Positions 51,414 through 59,112 of a DNA stretch of 64,000 bases are shown piece by piece; positions within the stretch are counted from its first letter, which is position 1, and each line of letters starts with the position of its first letter. The notes under the pieces are model-generated. The model had not been told where the DNA came from. It worked only from the letters and a program-made list of their open reading frames with translations, and did not search any database. The position numbers and the translations under genes are program-made. The stretch comes from Aestuariispira insulae (GTDB taxonomy: Bacteria; Pseudomonadota; Alphaproteobacteria; UBA8366; Aestuariispiraceae): assembly GCF_003385955.1 (NCBI RefSeq), contig NZ_QRDW01000001.1, positions 372,001-436,000 of the forward strand, written 5' to 3'.

Positions 51414-51770
51414 TTATGGCTGGGCCTGCAATGTCAGCACACCGCGCTTTTTCCCGGCTTCCATATCAAAGACCAAGATGGCTTCGCCATCCGCGGACTG
51501 ATACCGGACCAGCAAAAGCGCACCAGACACATGGGTGGACAGGACCCTGCTGCCCGCCGGCAATTTTTCCGTCACATCTCCGAAATGGCCGCCTGGCCCG
51601 GAAACCTGAACTGACGGCGTGGGAATATCGCCCGCTTCCTGCATCACCACGGCAGGGGTCTCTTCCTCCCCCATCCGGTTGAATTTCTTGACCATCAAAA
51701 TGGCGAGCGCCGTGGTCCCGGCCACGATCAGAACCCCCATGAAGATAACCAGCGCCTTAAGTCCTTGCAT
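51414..51770 (-). CDS. DUF6476-type small membrane-anchored protein
   Basis: 118 aa with an N-terminal membrane helix (LKALVIFMGVLIVAGTTALAI) followed by a KKF.R linker and a short periplasmic beta-rich domain (GGHFGDVTEKLPAGSRVLST; ILVFDMEAGKKRGVL). It looks like the alphaproteobacterial DUF6476 family that is often encoded beside RluA-type genes; function unknown. Divergent from rluD with 33 bases between starts. Confidence 0.65.
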   Translation of the reverse strand: MQGLKALVIFMGVLIVAGTTALAILMVKKFNRMGEEETPAVVMQEAGDIPTPSVQVSGPGGHFGDVTEKLPAGSRVLSTHVSGALLLVRYQSADGEAILVFDMEAGKKRGVLTLQAQP

Positions 51771-51803
51771 TGCTTACACCTGACTTGTATAGCCCATGCC
51801 ACC

Positions 51804-52781
51804 ATGGATGAGATCGAAACATACGAAATCGCGGTATTGCCGGAACATAAGGGCAAACGGCTGGACAAGGTCCTGGCCGATGCCCTGCCCGATTTTTCAC
51901 GCAATCGTCTCAAATCCCTGATCATTGATGGCGGGGCAGTGGTAGAAGGCCGGACGATAGCCGACCCGTCCCACCGGGTCAAACCCGGCAAGACCGTGAT
52001 CTTGTCTGTGCCGCATGCCGAAGAATTGGACCTGGTGCCGCAGGATATTCCCCTCACCATCGCCTATGAAGACGAACATCTGATCGTCGTCGACAAACCC
52101 GCCGGCATGGTGGTTCATCCGGCCCCGGGCAATGAAGACGGCACCCTGGTCAATGCGATCCTGCATCATTGCGGTGACAGCCTGCTGGGCATTGGCGGGG
52201 TCAAGCGCCCCGGTATCGTTCACCGGATCGACAAAGATACCAGTGGCCTGATCGTGATCGCCAAGGATGACCAGACTCACACGGCGCTCTCTGCCAAATT
52301 CAAGGCCAAGGATATGGAACGGCGCTATCAGGCGGTTGTCTGGGGCCTGCCCAATCCCACGTCCGGTCGGATTGAGGGCAATATCGGCCGCCATCCGGTT
52401 CACAGGAAACTGATGGCTGTGGTCAAAGCCGCCCAGGGTAAGCATGCGGTTACCCATTACAAGACATTGGAGGCTTTCGGCACCGGGGCCGCCCTGGTTG
52501 AATGCCAGCTGGAAACTGGTCGGACCCATCAGATTCGCGTTCATATGACCCATATCGGCCACCCTTTGATGGGGGATCCGGTCTATGGCCGGAGCTCAAA
52601 AACCCGGCGTGGCGGCATATCCACGGCGGCACAAGACTATCTCAGCACCTTTAATCGACAGGCATTGCACGCGAAAATTCTTGGCTTTGATCATCCGATC
52701 AGCGGTGAAAAACTCTCCTTTGAGAGCGATTTACCTAATGATATCAAAGATTTAATGATATCGTTGCGCCACAGTTCATAG
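51804..52781 (+). CDS. rluD: RluA/RluD family 23S rRNA pseudouridine synthase
   Basis: Converts uridines to pseudouridine in 23S rRNA helix 69, needed for ribosome function. 325 aa: N-terminal S4 RNA-binding domain (RLDKVLADALPDFSRNRLKS) and a catalytic domain with Asp143 in GIVHRIDKDTSGL, then YLALV-type strands written RRYQAVVWG and TGRTHQIRVHMTHIGHP. The frame is open 13 codons up to 51765, but the ATG at 51804 starts the S4 domain. Upstream of rpoH on the same strand, an arrangement common in alphaproteobacteria. Confidence 0.92.
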   Translation: MDEIETYEIAVLPEHKGKRLDKVLADALPDFSRNRLKSLIIDGGAVVEGRTIADPSHRVKPGKTVILSVPHAEELDLVPQDIPLTIAYEDEHLIVVDKPAGMVVHPAPGNEDGTLVNAILHHCGDSLLGIGGVKRPGIVHRIDKDTSGLIVIAKDDQTHTALSAKFKAKDMERRYQAVVWGLPNPTSGRIEGNIGRHPVHRKLMAVVKAAQGKHAVTHYKTLEAFGTGAALVECQLETGRTHQIRVHMTHIGHPLMGDPVYGRSSKTRRGGISTAAQDYLSTFNRQALHAKILGFDHPISGEKLSFESDLPNDIKDLMISLRHSS

Positions 52782-52908: not shown

Positions 52909-53799
52909 ATGGCTGGCATTGCCAACGTACCCGTGCTTACCCCCGAGGGTAATTTGCAGAGATATCTTGATGATATCCGCAAGTTTCCCATGCTGGAACC
53001 GGATGAGGAATTCATGCTGGCCAAGAGCTGGCGTGAACATGAGGATCGCGAAGCGGCTCAGAAACTGGTGACCAGCCATCTGCGTCTCGTGGCGAAAATT
53101 GCCATGGGATATCGCGGATATGGCCTGCCGGTGGCAGAACTGATTTCCGAGGGCAATGTCGGCATGATGCAAGCGGTCAAACGCTTTGATCCCGATCGCG
53201 GCTTCCGCCTGGCCACCTATGCAATGTGGTGGATCCGCGCATCGATCCAGGAATATATCCTGCATTCCTGGTCCTTGGTGAAGATGGGCACCACCGCCGC
53301 ACAAAAGAAACTTTTCTTCAATCTGCGCAAAATCAAAGGTCGCCTCCAGGCCTTTGATGAAGGCGACCTGTCGCCCGAGCATGTCAAACAGATTGCTGAG
53401 GAATTGAGCGTGCCGGAACAGGATGTGGTCAACATGAACCGCCGCCTGGCCGGGTCCGACAACTCCCTGAATGCTCCGTTGAAAGCAGATGGCGATGGCG
53501 AATGGCAGGACTGGCTGGAAGATGATACCGACAACCAGGAAACCATGCTGGCTGAATCGGAGGAGTTGACCCTGCGCCGTGAAATGCTGCAGGACGCGAT
53601 CAAACATCTCAACCCGCGCGAACAGGCGATTTTGACCGAGCGCCGCCTGAGTGAGCCGGCCAAGACGCTTGAGGAGTTGAGCCAGGAATACAATATCAGC
53701 CGCGAGCGTGTGCGTCAGATTGAGGTTCGCGCGTTCGAAAAACTGCAAAAAGCCATGAAGAATGCCGCTGTAGAACGCAAACTGGCATTACCGAGTTAA
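52909..53799 (+). CDS. rpoH: RNA polymerase sigma-32 factor (heat shock)
   Basis: Directs RNA polymerase to heat-shock promoters. 296 aa. Sigma region 2 contains LVTSHLRLVAKIAMGYRGYG and the RpoH hallmark KRFDPDRGFRLATYAMWWI; the RpoH box region is QKKLFFNLRKIKGRL; region 4 helix-turn-helix is LEELSQEYNISRERVRQIE. AGGGGAG precedes the ATG. The 127-base upstream region contains TTGAAA and CCAATCTAT elements that could be an RpoH-like promoter, not firmly assignable. Terminator follows at 53830. Confidence 0.97.
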   Translation: MAGIANVPVLTPEGNLQRYLDDIRKFPMLEPDEEFMLAKSWREHEDREAAQKLVTSHLRLVAKIAMGYRGYGLPVAELISEGNVGMMQAVKRFDPDRGFRLATYAMWWIRASIQEYILHSWSLVKMGTTAAQKKLFFNLRKIKGRLQAFDEGDLSPEHVKQIAEELSVPEQDVVNMNRRLAGSDNSLNAPLKADGDGEWQDWLEDDTDNQETMLAESEELTLRREMLQDAIKHLNPREQAILTERRLSEPAKTLEELSQEYNISRERVRQIEVRAFEKLQKAMKNAAVERKLALPS

Positions 53800-53829
53800 T
53801 TCGGCCGGGCAACCAGCGCGGAATAACAA

Positions 53830-53861
53830 AAAAGGGGGAGCTTCACTAAGCTCCCCCTTTT
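53830..53861 (+). terminator. Bidirectional terminator after rpoH
   Basis: 14-bp perfect stem (53830-53843 with 53848-53861), 4-base loop, A and T runs on the two sides. Also stops the convergent membrane protein gene. Confidence 0.9.
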
Positions 53862-53886
53862 CCGTTCCATTCGCCAGGATCCGGCG

Positions 53887-54486
53887 TTAACTCTCGGCAA
53901 CCTGGTCCTTATCCTTGTCTTCTTCAGTCCGCTTCCGTTGTTCTCCCGGTGCTTTCATCGCCTCTTCAGCGTCAGCAATAAGATCTTCCGGGATCAGCGG
54001 CGCGGTATCGGCCACTTCCAAGCCCCATTCCTTGGTCAATTCAAGCTGGCGCTGCTTCAATTTTTTCATCTGCACGTCGTTGGAAATGGTTTTCACCGAG
54101 AGGACCAATGGCGGCAATGTGTAATAAATCGCCCAACCAAGCCCCGCCAGGCCAAACATGATTCCCCAGTTGATCGGATCCCCAAGCATCTCGGCAGCCC
54201 GTTGGAGGCTGTCATCGCCGCTTTGCCACATATCCATGGCAACTATGAAGGTTCCCGCCATATTCAGATAGGCAACAGTTCTTGTCGCATGTCGGCGTGG
54301 GTGGTTATCGACAATGAATGCCACCAGTGTCGGCACCATGCCGCTGACGATCAACAGCATCGTCGCCGGAAACAGGACGCCTGCGACAATGATAATCAGC
54401 AGCCAGACCAATGGCGAGCGCATCGGGGATTTCTTGGCCACCGCCGGTTTTGCTTTTGCTGATTTTTTAGCTGGCTTCTTTGCCAT
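53887..54486 (-). CDS. Membrane protein with Lys-rich N-terminal tail, partner gene of the pseudokinase
   Basis: 199 aa. Residues 1-22 are a basic, Ala/Pro/Lys-rich tail (KKPAKKSAKAKPAVAKK). Hydrophobic segments lie at about 25-59 (one long helix or a hairpin) and 106-131; the C-terminal 65 residues form a charged coiled-coil-like helix with a very acidic/basic end. No family recognised. GGAGAGGCA before the ATG. It starts 18 bases after the pseudokinase stop, so both are surely co-transcribed. The conserved-looking block is FIVDNHPRRHATRTVAYLNM. Confidence 0.7.
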   Translation of the reverse strand: MAKKPAKKSAKAKPAVAKKSPMRSPLVWLLIIIVAGVLFPATMLLIVSGMVPTLVAFIVDNHPRRHATRTVAYLNMAGTFIVAMDMWQSGDDSLQRAAEMLGDPINWGIMFGLAGLGWAIYYTLPPLVLSVKTISNDVQMKKLKQRQLELTKEWGLEVADTAPLIPEDLIADAEEAMKAPGEQRKRTEEDKDKDQVAES

Positions 54487-54504
54487 TGCCTCTCCGATTA
54501 CCGA

Positions 54505-56544
54505 CTAGAAAAACTTGAAGATGGATGTGATTGAGACAATCAACCCCGCCAGGATCCCGGCAATCGCGGCGGCGATCTGTCCACCTATCTGCTGTGCAAT
54601 GGCCCGGCGGTTCACAATATCACGATAGAGCTGGATCTGATTGGAAACGCTATTGAAATACTCATGCGTCGCCGCCATAAAAGACCGCTTGTCCATCTCG
54701 ACATCTTCCTTGCGGTCAATCACCTCCAGCAGATCCTTGAGCTTGCCCGAAGCACTGGCTTTCATCAGCTTCGAGAGCACCTCCTGACGGTGACTGTGGG
54801 AATGAAACCGTTCAATAGCGGGCGTCAGCAGGGTTACGGCGGCCACCGCCAGTTCCGGCAGCGGCACTTTCGGCGCAATTAGCTCCTGCACCTTTGCCAG
54901 CACGGACACTTGAGCAATGCGGCCGATATAGGGCGGATCAGCCGCGTCCATATCCCGAAACTCATCCCCAAGGCTGCGTTTGAAATGAACTGACAGGAAT
55001 GCAGCGATCTGGCGGTCAACTAAATATTCCACTTCATTGCCCATACGGGCCGCCGCGCGGTTCATGGCCGGTAGGAAATAATCAATATCCGGTACAAAAT
55101 CCTTTTCAAACAGGGAAGATTGGCAGGGAAGATGCTGATTGAACTGATAGATGATGGCATTTAGCCCGGCACCGATCCGGGTTTGACCCAGGATATGTTT
55201 CAATTTCTCCAGCTTTGCCAGAATCCGCAAATGCTCGGGATCCGTCTTCGATTGCATTTCCAGCCAAAATGGCATCAGGCCCATTGCGACCACCTGTTCA
55301 AAGGCGGATCGCATTTCAGGATCCTGAGAATGCACCCCGACAAGCTGGAAAATGCCATCCACGGTACCGGCAAATTCCTTCAACTGAATGGGCCGATCGG
55401 GAGATAGTGCAATCAGGGTACGGGCCATCATGCGATCACTGCCTTCCGCATTGGATTCCGCATCCACCCCTTTGGCAACATTGACCGCCTCCGTACGATC
55501 CTCGTCGGAAAGGGACCGGCGCAACCAGGTATCCAAGGTGCCATCCTGCACCAGTGTCTTGGCCTGCTCCCAATTCCTGGCAAAGCAATAGGCCACCTCG
55601 CGAGCCATATTCAGATCCTCGCCGGCAAATTTGAGCGCCCGGGACCCTTTGTCCGGCAAAGAATGCTGTTTGGGGGACAGACGCCGCCCGTCCAGCCAGA
55701 GCGCCACATCATCCAGCACCCAGCGTTCGTCCGGATCGTCAGACAACAAGCCGCGAAGGGGCTCCATCAACCCTGTGGACACCCGGTGCGAGCCAACCAA
55801 TGCCGAATAAGTACCGTAACTCAGTTTCGCCTGGATCGCTGCTTCTTCCGTTTCAAATTTCGCTGCCGGATCCATGCCCGTTGAGGCGGCCAGAATGGTC
55901 ACGCCCAAAGCATAGAAATCATCCAGCGCCGACCCGCTTCCCCGGCCTGCCGGGCTGCATTGGCAGGCTGGAATGGTCAGGTATGTGGCGGACTGGAACA
56001 TAGCTTGCGGGGCGGTGCAACATTCGCCCAACAGGAATTCATCCCCCGCTTCATTATCAAAATAGATATTCTCCGGCCGAATCCGGCCATGGAAAACACC
56101 CTGATTGTGAATATCCCGCAGGACATTCACAATCGGTTGAATGAAGGCGCGGATCAAAACCTCTTCACTGAGCGGCTGGCCGGTCTCAAAAATCGAGGAA
56201 AGCGGTTTGCCCTTGGGCCGCTCACAGATGATCGCCGGATAACGACGCCCCTCGGCACCTGGCCATTCAACAATATCCCAGTCGACCACCCGCATATAAT
56301 TGCGATGGTCAACCCGGTGCAGGGCACTGACCGCGCCAAGCCTGGGTGGATAGCGCGGATCACAGATGAAAGCGATCAGATTGCGGGTTTTGTCCCGCAC
56401 ATGGACAGTCTTGTAGGCTCGCGCCGTCGGTGCATCATAAGCCGCGTCCGGATTGCTGCATTGAATGACATAGCGGTTCTTGACCAGAATCTCCCCGGAT
56501 CCCACCTGCTGCTCATCACCACCACTGGAAAACTTAACCGCCAT
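54505..56544 (-). CDS. Protein kinase-like protein with degenerate active site (pseudokinase), C-terminal membrane anchor
   Basis: 679 aa. Residues about 20-290 have the Ser/Thr kinase fold: the catalytic loop region is FHGRIRPENI (151-160), where HRD Asp is replaced by Arg154 while Asn159 remains; DFG is replaced by GEC (173-175); the DxWxxG helix is DDFYALGV (209-216 region) and LLSDDPDERW ends the domain. The Gly-rich loop and VAIK Lys are not evident. So phosphotransfer is unlikely. Residues about 300-640 are a long helical region of unknown type, and the end (about 648-679, GGQIAAAIAGILAGLIVSI) is a single membrane anchor, leaving the kinase fold in the cytoplasm. Confidence 0.8.
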   Translation of the reverse strand: MAVKFSSGGDEQQVGSGEILVKNRYVIQCSNPDAAYDAPTARAYKTVHVRDKTRNLIAFICDPRYPPRLGAVSALHRVDHRNYMRVVDWDIVEWPGAEGRRYPAIICERPKGKPLSSIFETGQPLSEEVLIRAFIQPIVNVLRDIHNQGVFHGRIRPENIYFDNEAGDEFLLGECCTAPQAMFQSATYLTIPACQCSPAGRGSGSALDDFYALGVTILAASTGMDPAAKFETEEAAIQAKLSYGTYSALVGSHRVSTGLMEPLRGLLSDDPDERWVLDDVALWLDGRRLSPKQHSLPDKGSRALKFAGEDLNMAREVAYCFARNWEQAKTLVQDGTLDTWLRRSLSDEDRTEAVNVAKGVDAESNAEGSDRMMARTLIALSPDRPIQLKEFAGTVDGIFQLVGVHSQDPEMRSAFEQVVAMGLMPFWLEMQSKTDPEHLRILAKLEKLKHILGQTRIGAGLNAIIYQFNQHLPCQSSLFEKDFVPDIDYFLPAMNRAAARMGNEVEYLVDRQIAAFLSVHFKRSLGDEFRDMDAADPPYIGRIAQVSVLAKVQELIAPKVPLPELAVAAVTLLTPAIERFHSHSHRQEVLSKLMKASASGKLKDLLEVIDRKEDVEMDKRSFMAATHEYFNSVSNQIQLYRDIVNRRAIAQQIGGQIAAAIAGILAGLIVSITSIFKFF

Positions 56545-56591
56545 CAGCCTTTTGCCCCGGCCCCGGAAAACCGGGTTAACCCATTAAAATA

Positions 56592-56624
56592 AAAAGGATC
56601 CAGTCGATTGAACTAGATCCTTTT
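56592..56624 (-). terminator. Terminator after purA
   Basis: AAAAGGATC(C)AGT pairs with ACT(A)GATCCTTTT across a short loop; the minus strand continues TTTTTATTTT. It separates purA from the pseudokinase operon. Confidence 0.75.
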
Positions 56625-56666
56625 CAATGTAACATGATTCCTGTTTGCACAAGAATGCTTTTATGG

Positions 56667-57959
56667 TCAGCCTTCGAAGGGATCGCGCACCAGAATGGTG
56701 TCTTCCCGTTCCGGACTGGTGGACAGCAAAGCCACCGGCGTTTCGATTAATTCTTCGATCCGGCGCACATATTTGATCATATTGGCCGGCAGTTCTGCCC
56801 AGGAACGCGCACCGGCGGTGCTTTCCGACCAGCCTTCCAGGGTTTCATAAATCGGCTCTACCTTGTCCTGCAGGCCGGTGGCTGCCGGCAGATGGTCAAA
56901 GGTTTTATCACCAACTTTATAGCCAACACAGATTTTCAACTCATCCATGCCATCCAGCACATCCACTTTGGTCAACGCAATACCGTCCATGCCGCTGACC
57001 TTGGCGGCCTGGCGGACCATGACGGCATCAAACCAGCCACAACGGCGTTTCCGGCCCGTGGTAGTACCAAACTCATGGCCACGCTGACCAAGGCCCTCAC
57101 CAACCTCATCATGCAATTCTGTCGGGAACGGGCCAGAACCCACACGTGTGGTGTAGGCTTTGGTGATCCCAAGCACATATCCGGTGGATTTCGGACCGCA
57201 ACCGGCACCACTGCCGGCTTGGCCCGCTGCAGTGTTGGAAGAGGTAACATAGGGATAGGTGCCATGATCGATATCCAGCATCACACCCTGAGCACCTTCA
57301 AACAAGACCCACTGGCCTTCATGGCGGGCTTCATCCAGAACCTTCCAGACCACGCCTGCATAAGGCAGGATCTTTGGCGCGATTTCCAGCAAGGTTTCAA
57401 TCAGTTCTTCCCGGTCAACCGGCTCTTCGCCAAGGCCTTTCAGTAGGGCATTGTGATGTTCCAGGAGCGCATCGACCCGGCCTTCAAGCAGGCTGCGGTC
57501 GGCGAGATCACAAACCCGGACCGCACGGCGTGCGACTTTATCCTCATAGGCCGGGCCGATGCCGCGGCCTGTGGTGCCGATCTTGGCATCGCCACGGGCT
57601 TTTTCACGCACTTTGTCCAAACGCTGGTGAACCGGCAGGATCAGCGGCGCATTTTCCGCGATCAACAGATTTTCCGGGGTGATGGCAACTCCCTGTGCCT
57701 TCACGGTTTCGATCTCGTTCATCAACGCCCAGGGATCAATGACCACACCGTTGCCGATAACGGATTTCTTGCCCTCGCGCACAATGCCGGACGGCAGCAG
57801 GTGAAGCTTATAGACCTTGCCATCGATCACCAGGGTATGGCCGGCATTATGACCGCCCTGGAAGCGGACAACCACATCGGCACGTTCAGACAACCAGTCG
57901 ACAATCTTGCCTTTTCCTTCATCTCCCCACTGGGAGCCAATGACAACTACGTTGGTCAT
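56667..57959 (-). CDS. purA: Adenylosuccinate synthetase
   Basis: First step from IMP to AMP, using GTP and aspartate. 430 aa with [20 protein letters not shown] (P-loop and catalytic Asp13), NAGHTLV (catalytic His), [37 protein letters not shown] and SGPFPTEL. Length matches the family. It follows hisZ by 4 bases; AAGGAATG at the end of hisZ provides the ribosome site, so translation is coupled. Confidence 0.97.
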
Positions 57960-57963
57960 CCGT

Positions 57964-59112
57964 TCATTCCTTTTCTACAGCGACGATACCGTCAAGCGTC
58001 AATACATGGCTGCATCGCAGACGCGCAGCCTCCGTCAAAACATCCTTTTCCGGCGCCAATCCGCTGACTGTGATCCAGCCTGCAGTCCGTTCGCGTCGGG
58101 CAATATCCAAATCCGTGCCGTGCGGCAGATAGAGCCTGGACCGGCGTTCCCGCTTAGGTACCGCCCGCAGGACCGTATCCATATAGAGTGAGAACCCGGT
58201 GGCCGCTTCATCAGCGGCACCGGCCAAATAACGGCCGCCCCGGCCCAATTCGCCGCGCACATCACGGTCAAAAAGAGTGAAGCTGAGGCCAGTTTGATAT
58301 TCAAATCCACGATGTTCCACCGGATCAACGGTGACCATCAGGCCCAGCGCCATATCGGAAAGGCGCTCCACAACCAGTATCAACCGGTCCCGTTCCGCGG
58401 CCGCGGCTTCCGGCAGGGTTAATTCATTAAGGGCAGCGATCGCCTTGTCCGCCAGGCCGCTTGCCTGCAACAGACCGCCAAAAATTCCGGCAACCGGTCC
58501 AGCCATCGCGGCAATTGCGGCGGCATCTTTACGATCAAGGGCAGAGCGCACATCTTCCTTGGCATCCCGGTCCAGCCCCAGATCATCACAAATGGCCCGG
58601 ACAATGGTCGGCAGAGAGATATCAACGGAGAGATTTTCAACACCAAGCGTTTGAAGCGCCTCGTAAGCCAGCGCGATCACCTCGGCATCCGCCTCAGGGC
58701 TGTCCGCGCCAATCAATTCGACCCCGGCCTGCGCCACCTGTCGTTCGGGGCGCAGCTGGCTGCCTTTCACACGCAGAACCTGACCGCCATAGAACAAACG
58801 CAGCGGCCGTTCCATCGCCGCCAGGCGCGAGGTCGCAATCCGGGCAACCTGAGGGGTCATATCCGCGCGCACACCCATCATGCGCTGGCTGACAGGATCC
58901 ATCAGGCGGAAGGTATGCGGGGCCATTGCCTCGCCCGCCCCATCCAGCAGGTTTTCCTCAAACTCCACCAGCGGCGGCTCGACACGCTCATAGCCATGAA
59001 TGGAAAAGGCTTCCAGCAGGCCGTCCATCACGGACGCTTCATGGATCGCCTCGGGCGGCAAAAGGTCTCTGAGCCCCTGCGGCAGCAGGGATTTCTTCAC
59101 GCCACTATTCAT
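57964..59112 (-). CDS. hisZ: ATP phosphoribosyltransferase regulatory subunit
   Basis: HisZ is a histidyl-tRNA synthetase paralogue that binds short-form HisG and gives histidine feedback in the first step of histidine synthesis. 382 aa with class II synthetase motifs: [14 protein letters not shown], motif 2 region [13 protein letters not shown], and HisZ-type [15 protein letters not shown]; it lacks the C-terminal anticodon domain of HisS and key ATP residues. hisG is not in the window. First gene of an operon with purA. No clear ribosome site at the ATG (59112). Confidence 0.92.

Follow-up and report, generated by a model that had tools for sequence, protein, structure and literature searches.

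In the window analyzed here, a stretch of 64,000 nucleotides from the genome of Aestuariispira insulae, the minus strand between purA and rpoH encodes two proteins, denoted here PSK and MEM, in neighboring genes (Table 1). The initial annotation recognized a two-gene membrane module at this place; both open reading frames lie where they were originally positioned, and the identity of the neighboring genes was checked with Pfam. Given the hairpin terminators on both sides, PSK and MEM probably constitute a transcription unit of their own, separate from the purA operon, as judged from the folding of the flanking DNA; a search for promoters around the pair produced no candidate above chance. On the far side of the locus, beside rluD, there is a gene for a small membrane protein (51414-51770, minus strand) with weak, sub-threshold similarity to DUF6476, and the cluster of this protein recurs in 15 of the 81 examined loci.

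Table 1. Features of the PSK-MEM locus and its neighborhood, in positions of the window
Feature	Position	Strand	Basis or remark
hisZ	57964-59112	-	Pfam; beyond purA
purA	56667-57959	-	Pfam; upstream of PSK
Candidate intrinsic terminator 3' of purA, upstream of PSK	56590..56626	-	Folding z -4.84
PSK, pseudokinase of 679 aa; helical domain and C-terminal membrane anchor predicted	54505..56544	-	ORF list
Predicted protein-kinase-fold domain, PSK residues 18-288	55681..56493	-	AF2 pLDDT >90 nearly throughout; Foldseek
HRD-equivalent HGR, residues 152-154, lacking the catalytic Asp	56083..56091	-	Asp in 1/83 sequences
DFG-equivalent GEC, residues 173-175, lacking the metal-binding Asp	56020..56028	-	G 80/83, D 1/83
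Predicted helical domain, PSK residues 300-645, with invariant Tyr466 and Cys474	54610..55647	-	Model, alignment, hhalign
Predicted single C-terminal transmembrane helix, PSK residues 657-675	54520..54576	-	Mean Kyte-Doolittle 2.35
18-base spacer between PSK and MEM, with GGAGAGG ribosome-binding site for MEM	54487..54504	.	Sequence
MEM, 199-aa membrane protein	53887..54486	-	ORF list, structure model
Candidate strong intrinsic terminator 3' of MEM, common to convergent rpoH	53820..53872	-	-31.6 kcal/mol, z -6.78
rpoH	52909-53799	+	Pfam; convergent, downstream of MEM
rluD	51765-52781	+	Pfam; beyond rpoH

Kinase fold and active site of PSK

The structure predicted for PSK with AF2 (pLDDT 93.6) comprises a kinase fold, a helical domain and a C-terminal membrane helix. 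In Foldseek searches, the modeled kinase domain matches the kinases PknA (4x3f) and Stk1 (9ymt) with target-normalized TM scores of 0.73-0.76. The match to PF00069 falls below the Pfam cut-off, and a profile search with PSK recognizes kinases, with an E-value of 1e-14 for MK2. The model, the structural matches and the profile search all point to a bilobal protein kinase fold.

The VAIK Lys, the HRD Asp and the DFG Asp (equivalents of Lys60, Asp154 and Asp173) are all absent in 80 of the 83 family sequences; the other three retain one catalytic residue each, the beta3 Lys, the HRD Asp and the DFG Asp once apiece. The motifs of the window protein are as initially described, with HGRIRPEN present, Arg154 in place of the HRD Asp and GEC in place of DFG. 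The loss of the Asp holds family-wide, with no Asp anywhere among residues 151-156 in 82 of the 83 sequences, so that no alternative alignment restores it, whereas Arg154 itself turns out to be a local variant of a position at which the family consensus is HR-Ala (40/83). The consensus motifs of the family are HR-A-IRPxN and LGEC, with His152 in 78/83 sequences and Arg or Gly at position 153; the beta3 strand has the consensus A-L-V-C, and a PLPxxxxPxGxAY-like stretch takes the place of the glycine-rich loop. In contrast, the Asp of helix alpha-F (Asp209) and Arg274, the roles of which we take, from PKA, to be structural, are each kept in 82/83 sequences. The disappearance of the catalytic residues along with the retention of those that maintain the fold suggests that selection preserved the fold and gave up phosphotransfer, as had been suspected for the window protein. 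Judging from the alignment, the dead active site is a trait of the PSK family. A conventional, catalytically active Ser/Thr kinase accompanied by a membrane protein, in keeping with public annotation (the PGAP label on the Azospirillum homologue is 'serine/threonine protein kinase'), is barely conceivable in the face of these losses, and we reject a kinase of the Hanks type on sequence grounds.

Apart from the structural residues, the catalytic-loop Asn159 is conserved in 81/83, Arg156 in 69/83 and Arg68 in 78/83 sequences. Such conservation would fit a nucleotide- or phosphate-sensing switch, in which PSK would bind a nucleotide or an alarmone in a metal-free manner, through a positive pocket, and alter the state of MEM. 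The DLHK proteins are the nearest relatives of PSK. We regard a switch as the main rival explanation because these proteins have been proposed to bind ATP independently of metal by means of arginines, including one of the catalytic loop (PMC12599244), and PSK has both a catalytic-loop Arg and Arg68. A switch of this kind is nevertheless unlikely: PSK has lost the beta3 Lys, both Asp residues and the glycine-rich loop, and Arg is not consistently conserved at any position of the beta2-strand region (residues 41-48). The conserved Asn159 and Arg156, along with the invariant Tyr466 and Cys474 of the helical domain, might also be taken as marks of an enzyme with a new chemistry on the kinase fold, such as the SelO AMPylase or the SidJ glutamylase. 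However, SelO and SidJ retain the Lys and Asp residues that act as ATP ligands (PMC12599244), PSK has none of the three, and its conservation otherwise follows the fold, making an activity of this type very unlikely.

Helical domain, membrane anchor and MEM

The long helical middle and the single C-terminal anchor attributed to PSK from the start are borne out by the model and by the family alignment. Residues 300-645 are almost wholly helical in the AF2 model, and the C-terminal hydrophobic helix, with a Kyte-Doolittle value of at least 1.4, is present in 81 of the 83 family members. The family-invariant Tyr466 and Cys474 are located within the motif GxGxERxLYELNPxxPCxSP. Residues 300-645 correspond to no Pfam family, and searches of the PDB yielded relatives only at chance level or among designed repeats. 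The first ~120 residues of the helical domain are homologous to the region that follows the kinase domain in kinase-DUF4011 proteins (hhalign E 1e-7), and this post-kinase domain, partial and about 95-120 residues long, is common to PSK and two proteins of our set, L146 and L147 (hmmsearch, hhalign). The latter appear to belong to the DLHK group, given their HRDLRP and GFG motifs and the DUF4011 domain, and the shared domain suggests common ancestry of PSK with that group. An internal repeat in the helical domain, considered on account of two modeled beta-beta-helix units, was discarded, the sequence support for it being weak (E 0.012).

MEM, encoded 18 bases downstream of PSK, also conforms to its first description: the basic Lys/Ala/Pro tail, the hydrophobic segments and the long C-terminal helix are all found in the sequence or the structure model (pLDDT 89). 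In this model, a basic N-terminal tail (residues 1-20, low confidence) is followed by a hydrophobic hairpin (25-59), a helix (66-88) and a long helix (104-154). The 35-residue hydrophobic stretch holds an invariant Pro52, and the following helix an invariant Asn75; the ~50-residue helix 104-154 leaves the membrane in the model and has a conserved EWG at its end. The distribution of charges suggests an N-in/C-in topology. A Foldseek search with the MEM model retrieved no resembling structure from the PDB (best match E 1.9). Apparent fusions of MEM to large domains were dismissed as artefacts, since GC-rich DNA contains long frames with no stop codon.

Distribution and linkage of the two genes

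Each of the 13 further genomes from the family to which the host belongs contains PSK, which is fragmented in G011. A full-length homologue in a sister genus is 52% identical to PSK, and the identity across the class drops to about 20-35%, a conservation well above what chance would produce. A contig search with the PSK sequence of the window alone produced no match, and the same search with a six-sequence alignment as the query identified 80 named loci. With whole PSK as the query, 139 of the 385 genomes sampled across the class were matched, a few of them by weak kinase-only similarity; the C-terminal domain alone, which sidesteps generic kinases, was matched in 131 of the 385 genomes, representing 70 families. 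The carriers include Azospirillum, Skermanella, Niveispirillum, Nitrospirillum and Magnetospirillum, as well as Thalassobaculum, Thalassospira, Curvivirga, Pelagibius and Micavibrio, and the pair is retained in reduced genomes of 1.2-1.9 Mb. MEM was matched in 136 of the 385 genomes, and all 131 in which the PSK C-terminal domain was matched are among them (Fisher p 5e-98, uncorrected for shared ancestry). Of the five genomes with MEM only, G045 and G059 are incomplete assemblies, and the matches in G017, G104 and G351 are borderline. Among 299 genomes sampled across the phylum, MEM is confined to Alphaproteobacteria; the only other matches to the PSK C-terminal profile in this sample are two weak ones to proteins of the kinase-helicase type, of which one comes from an alphaproteobacterium and the other from a different class.

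The two genes are not only found in the same genomes but also nearly always adjacent, the contrary of homologues that are never together, an outcome contemplated in the initial annotation. For 81 of the 84 PSK genes in the 80 loci and the window, the gene immediately downstream, in the same orientation, is MEM (80 scored as such, plus L059, where the two genes overlap). The exceptions are two second copies of PSK (L076, L102) and L118, where MEM lies on another contig. The median spacing is 10 bases, and in many homologues the genes touch or overlap, often by 4 bases, an arrangement typical of coupled translation. The pair has been duplicated in tandem as a unit, PSK-MEM-PSK-MEM, at L077, L084 and L093. 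A 2.0 Mb genome (G145; L093, L094) contains three PSK-MEM pairs in all. In G314 (100% complete) and apparently also in G230, the genes are unlinked, on different contigs, but both are retained.

The distances in the PSK and MEM trees are correlated (0.74 across 31 loci), and a correlation of 0.54 remains once the contribution of purA, rpoH and hisZ is regressed out, a value reached in 0 of 2000 permutations, with the caveat that PSK and MEM both evolve faster than the control genes. In an analysis of residue coupling, underpowered at 157 unique pairs (effective number 114), the top scores were no higher than with shuffled pairing, and therefore we do not claim a PSK-MEM interface. Two genomes of one genus (G027 and G159) each encode three extra MEM paralogues (L229-L234) with no PSK nearby, so that MEM can work alone, at least in these bacteria. 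At L231, the gene preceding such a paralogue encodes a hybrid histidine kinase that has receiver and Hpt domains; at L231 and L234, the extra paralogue is located beside a gene for a beta-helix protein.

The gene purA lies upstream of the pair in 49 of the 81 loci and rpoH convergently downstream in 48, with at least one of the two in 61, which points to the ancestral position of the pair. Beyond housekeeping genes, nothing is recurrent in the 81 neighborhoods, and no consistent functional hint comes from them. Neighbors resembling pyrBC, histidine ammonia-lyase and ilvD, named by eye from the sequence, as well as ychF, atpH and a pyridine-nucleotide oxidoreductase, were set aside as functional hints because they are inconsistent between lineages.

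Comparison with known systems and a possible role

Searches with PSK and MEM against Pfam, NCBIfam, PADLOC and PHROGs returned only sub-threshold or generic kinase matches. A 2025 review of bacterial pseudokinases (PMC12599244) includes no group like PSK, the comparison of motifs and domains covering the DLHK, GLW and EssB/YukC groups; the CP1 pseudokinases have no transmembrane regions (PMC12599244). A search of the openly accessible literature retrieved no work on the PSK-MEM pair, although the family could correspond to an unnamed cluster of the bacterial serine-threonine kinase atlas. Thus, the view that no system of this design had been described stands in these sources: the PSK family, its partner and their class-wide conservation appear to be undescribed in the open literature, Pfam, NCBIfam, PADLOC and PHROGs, although membrane-anchored bacterial pseudokinase scaffolds are already known as a kind.

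The best PADLOC matches of PSK are MkoA (E 2e-13) and PD-T4-6, and PSK has its post-kinase domain in common with kinase-DUF4011-helicase proteins, which raises the possibility of an anti-phage defense system related to the Mokosh, MADS or PD-T4-6 kinases. The likeness to Mokosh MkoA, PD-T4-6 and MADS Mad6 is that of the generic kinase fold; the alignment with MkoA covers residues 72-356 of PSK only, and PSK has no helicase domain. The MkoB partner of Mokosh type I is missing as well, MEM having no match in PADLOC, and neither does the locus contain a helicase, nuclease or second defense gene. Because the chromosomal locus is fixed, unlike mobile islands, the pair is retained in reduced genomes and helicase or nuclease parts are missing, we consider a role in defense highly improbable.

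Three groups of pseudokinases are also among the systems most similar to PSK. The DLHK proteins, the nearest sequence relatives, are cytosolic kinase-DUF4011-helicase proteins that, similarly to PSK, combine a kinase domain with a homologous helical region and have a catalytic-loop arginine (HRxxRP) and a degraded VAIK Lys and DFG. They differ from PSK in keeping the HRD Asp, which PSK has in a single sequence of 83, and in possessing helicase and DUF4011 domains and no transmembrane helix, whereas PSK has no such Pfam domains and does have the helix. The proteobacterial GLW pseudokinases (PMC12599244) share with PSK the loss of all three motifs and a C-terminal transmembrane region, but carry GLW instead of HRD, along with a Leu/Trp poly-leucine motif at the beta3 strand, in contrast to HR[A/N/S/G/R] and LGEC in PSK. 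EssB/YukC of type VIIb secretion, the precedent for a scaffold pseudokinase (PMC12599244), resembles PSK in the degradation of the three motifs, in the one transmembrane helix that lies C-terminal to the kinase domain and in being a scaffold in a membrane complex, the role that we propose for PSK. The differences are the 350-residue helical domain between the kinase domain and the membrane and the polytopic partner MEM. EssB is absent among the best 50 of ~1,950 Foldseek matches to PSK. No type VII secretion context was found either among the neighbors in the window (purA, hisZ, rpoH, rluD) or among the recurrent genes of the 81 neighborhoods; hence the comparison with EssB/YukC is an analogy that concerns the mode of action, not membership.

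Taken together, these observations make it fairly probable that PSK and MEM are the two obligate partners of an inner-membrane complex in which PSK is a non-catalytic scaffold. Under this model, PSK would be held at the cytoplasmic face of the inner membrane by its C-terminal helix, with the kinase fold and the large helical domain serving as a protein-docking platform that transfers no phosphate. MEM, with both termini inside, would embed the complex, and the long helix at its C-terminus, which bears the EWG motif, would reach into the cytoplasm and meet PSK. The complex might then recruit or organize another factor of the envelope or the cytoplasm, much as EssB/YukC does, in a process specific to a part of Alphaproteobacteria. 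The conserved Asn159 and Arg156 count against this model because they would be superfluous for pure scaffolding, and so do the coupling scores no higher than with shuffled pairing, the three PSK genes with no MEM beside them and the extra MEM paralogues that have no PSK. Between the two functions initially suggested, an envelope scaffold and a nucleotide-sensing device, the scaffold is favored. A broader reading, which we find possible but more doubtful than not, is that the pair is an ancient alphaproteobacterial inner-membrane complex with a core role of its own, neither defense nor type VII secretion, where the kinase-like fold would control MEM, possibly through metal-free nucleotide sensing; were this the case, the pair would have been overlooked behind the label 'serine/threonine protein kinase'.

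Bacterial pseudokinases are largely unexplored experimentally (PMC12599244), and few of them have a known job. The PSK family is broadly distributed, its partner is nearly invariant and its position in the genome is conserved, and some of the carrier genera are genetically tractable, so that the function of a bacterial pseudokinase becomes directly testable. Public annotation would need correction as well: on a chromid of Azospirillum ramasamyi (L228), the PSK homologue is annotated as a serine/threonine protein kinase and MEM as a 'hypothetical protein'.
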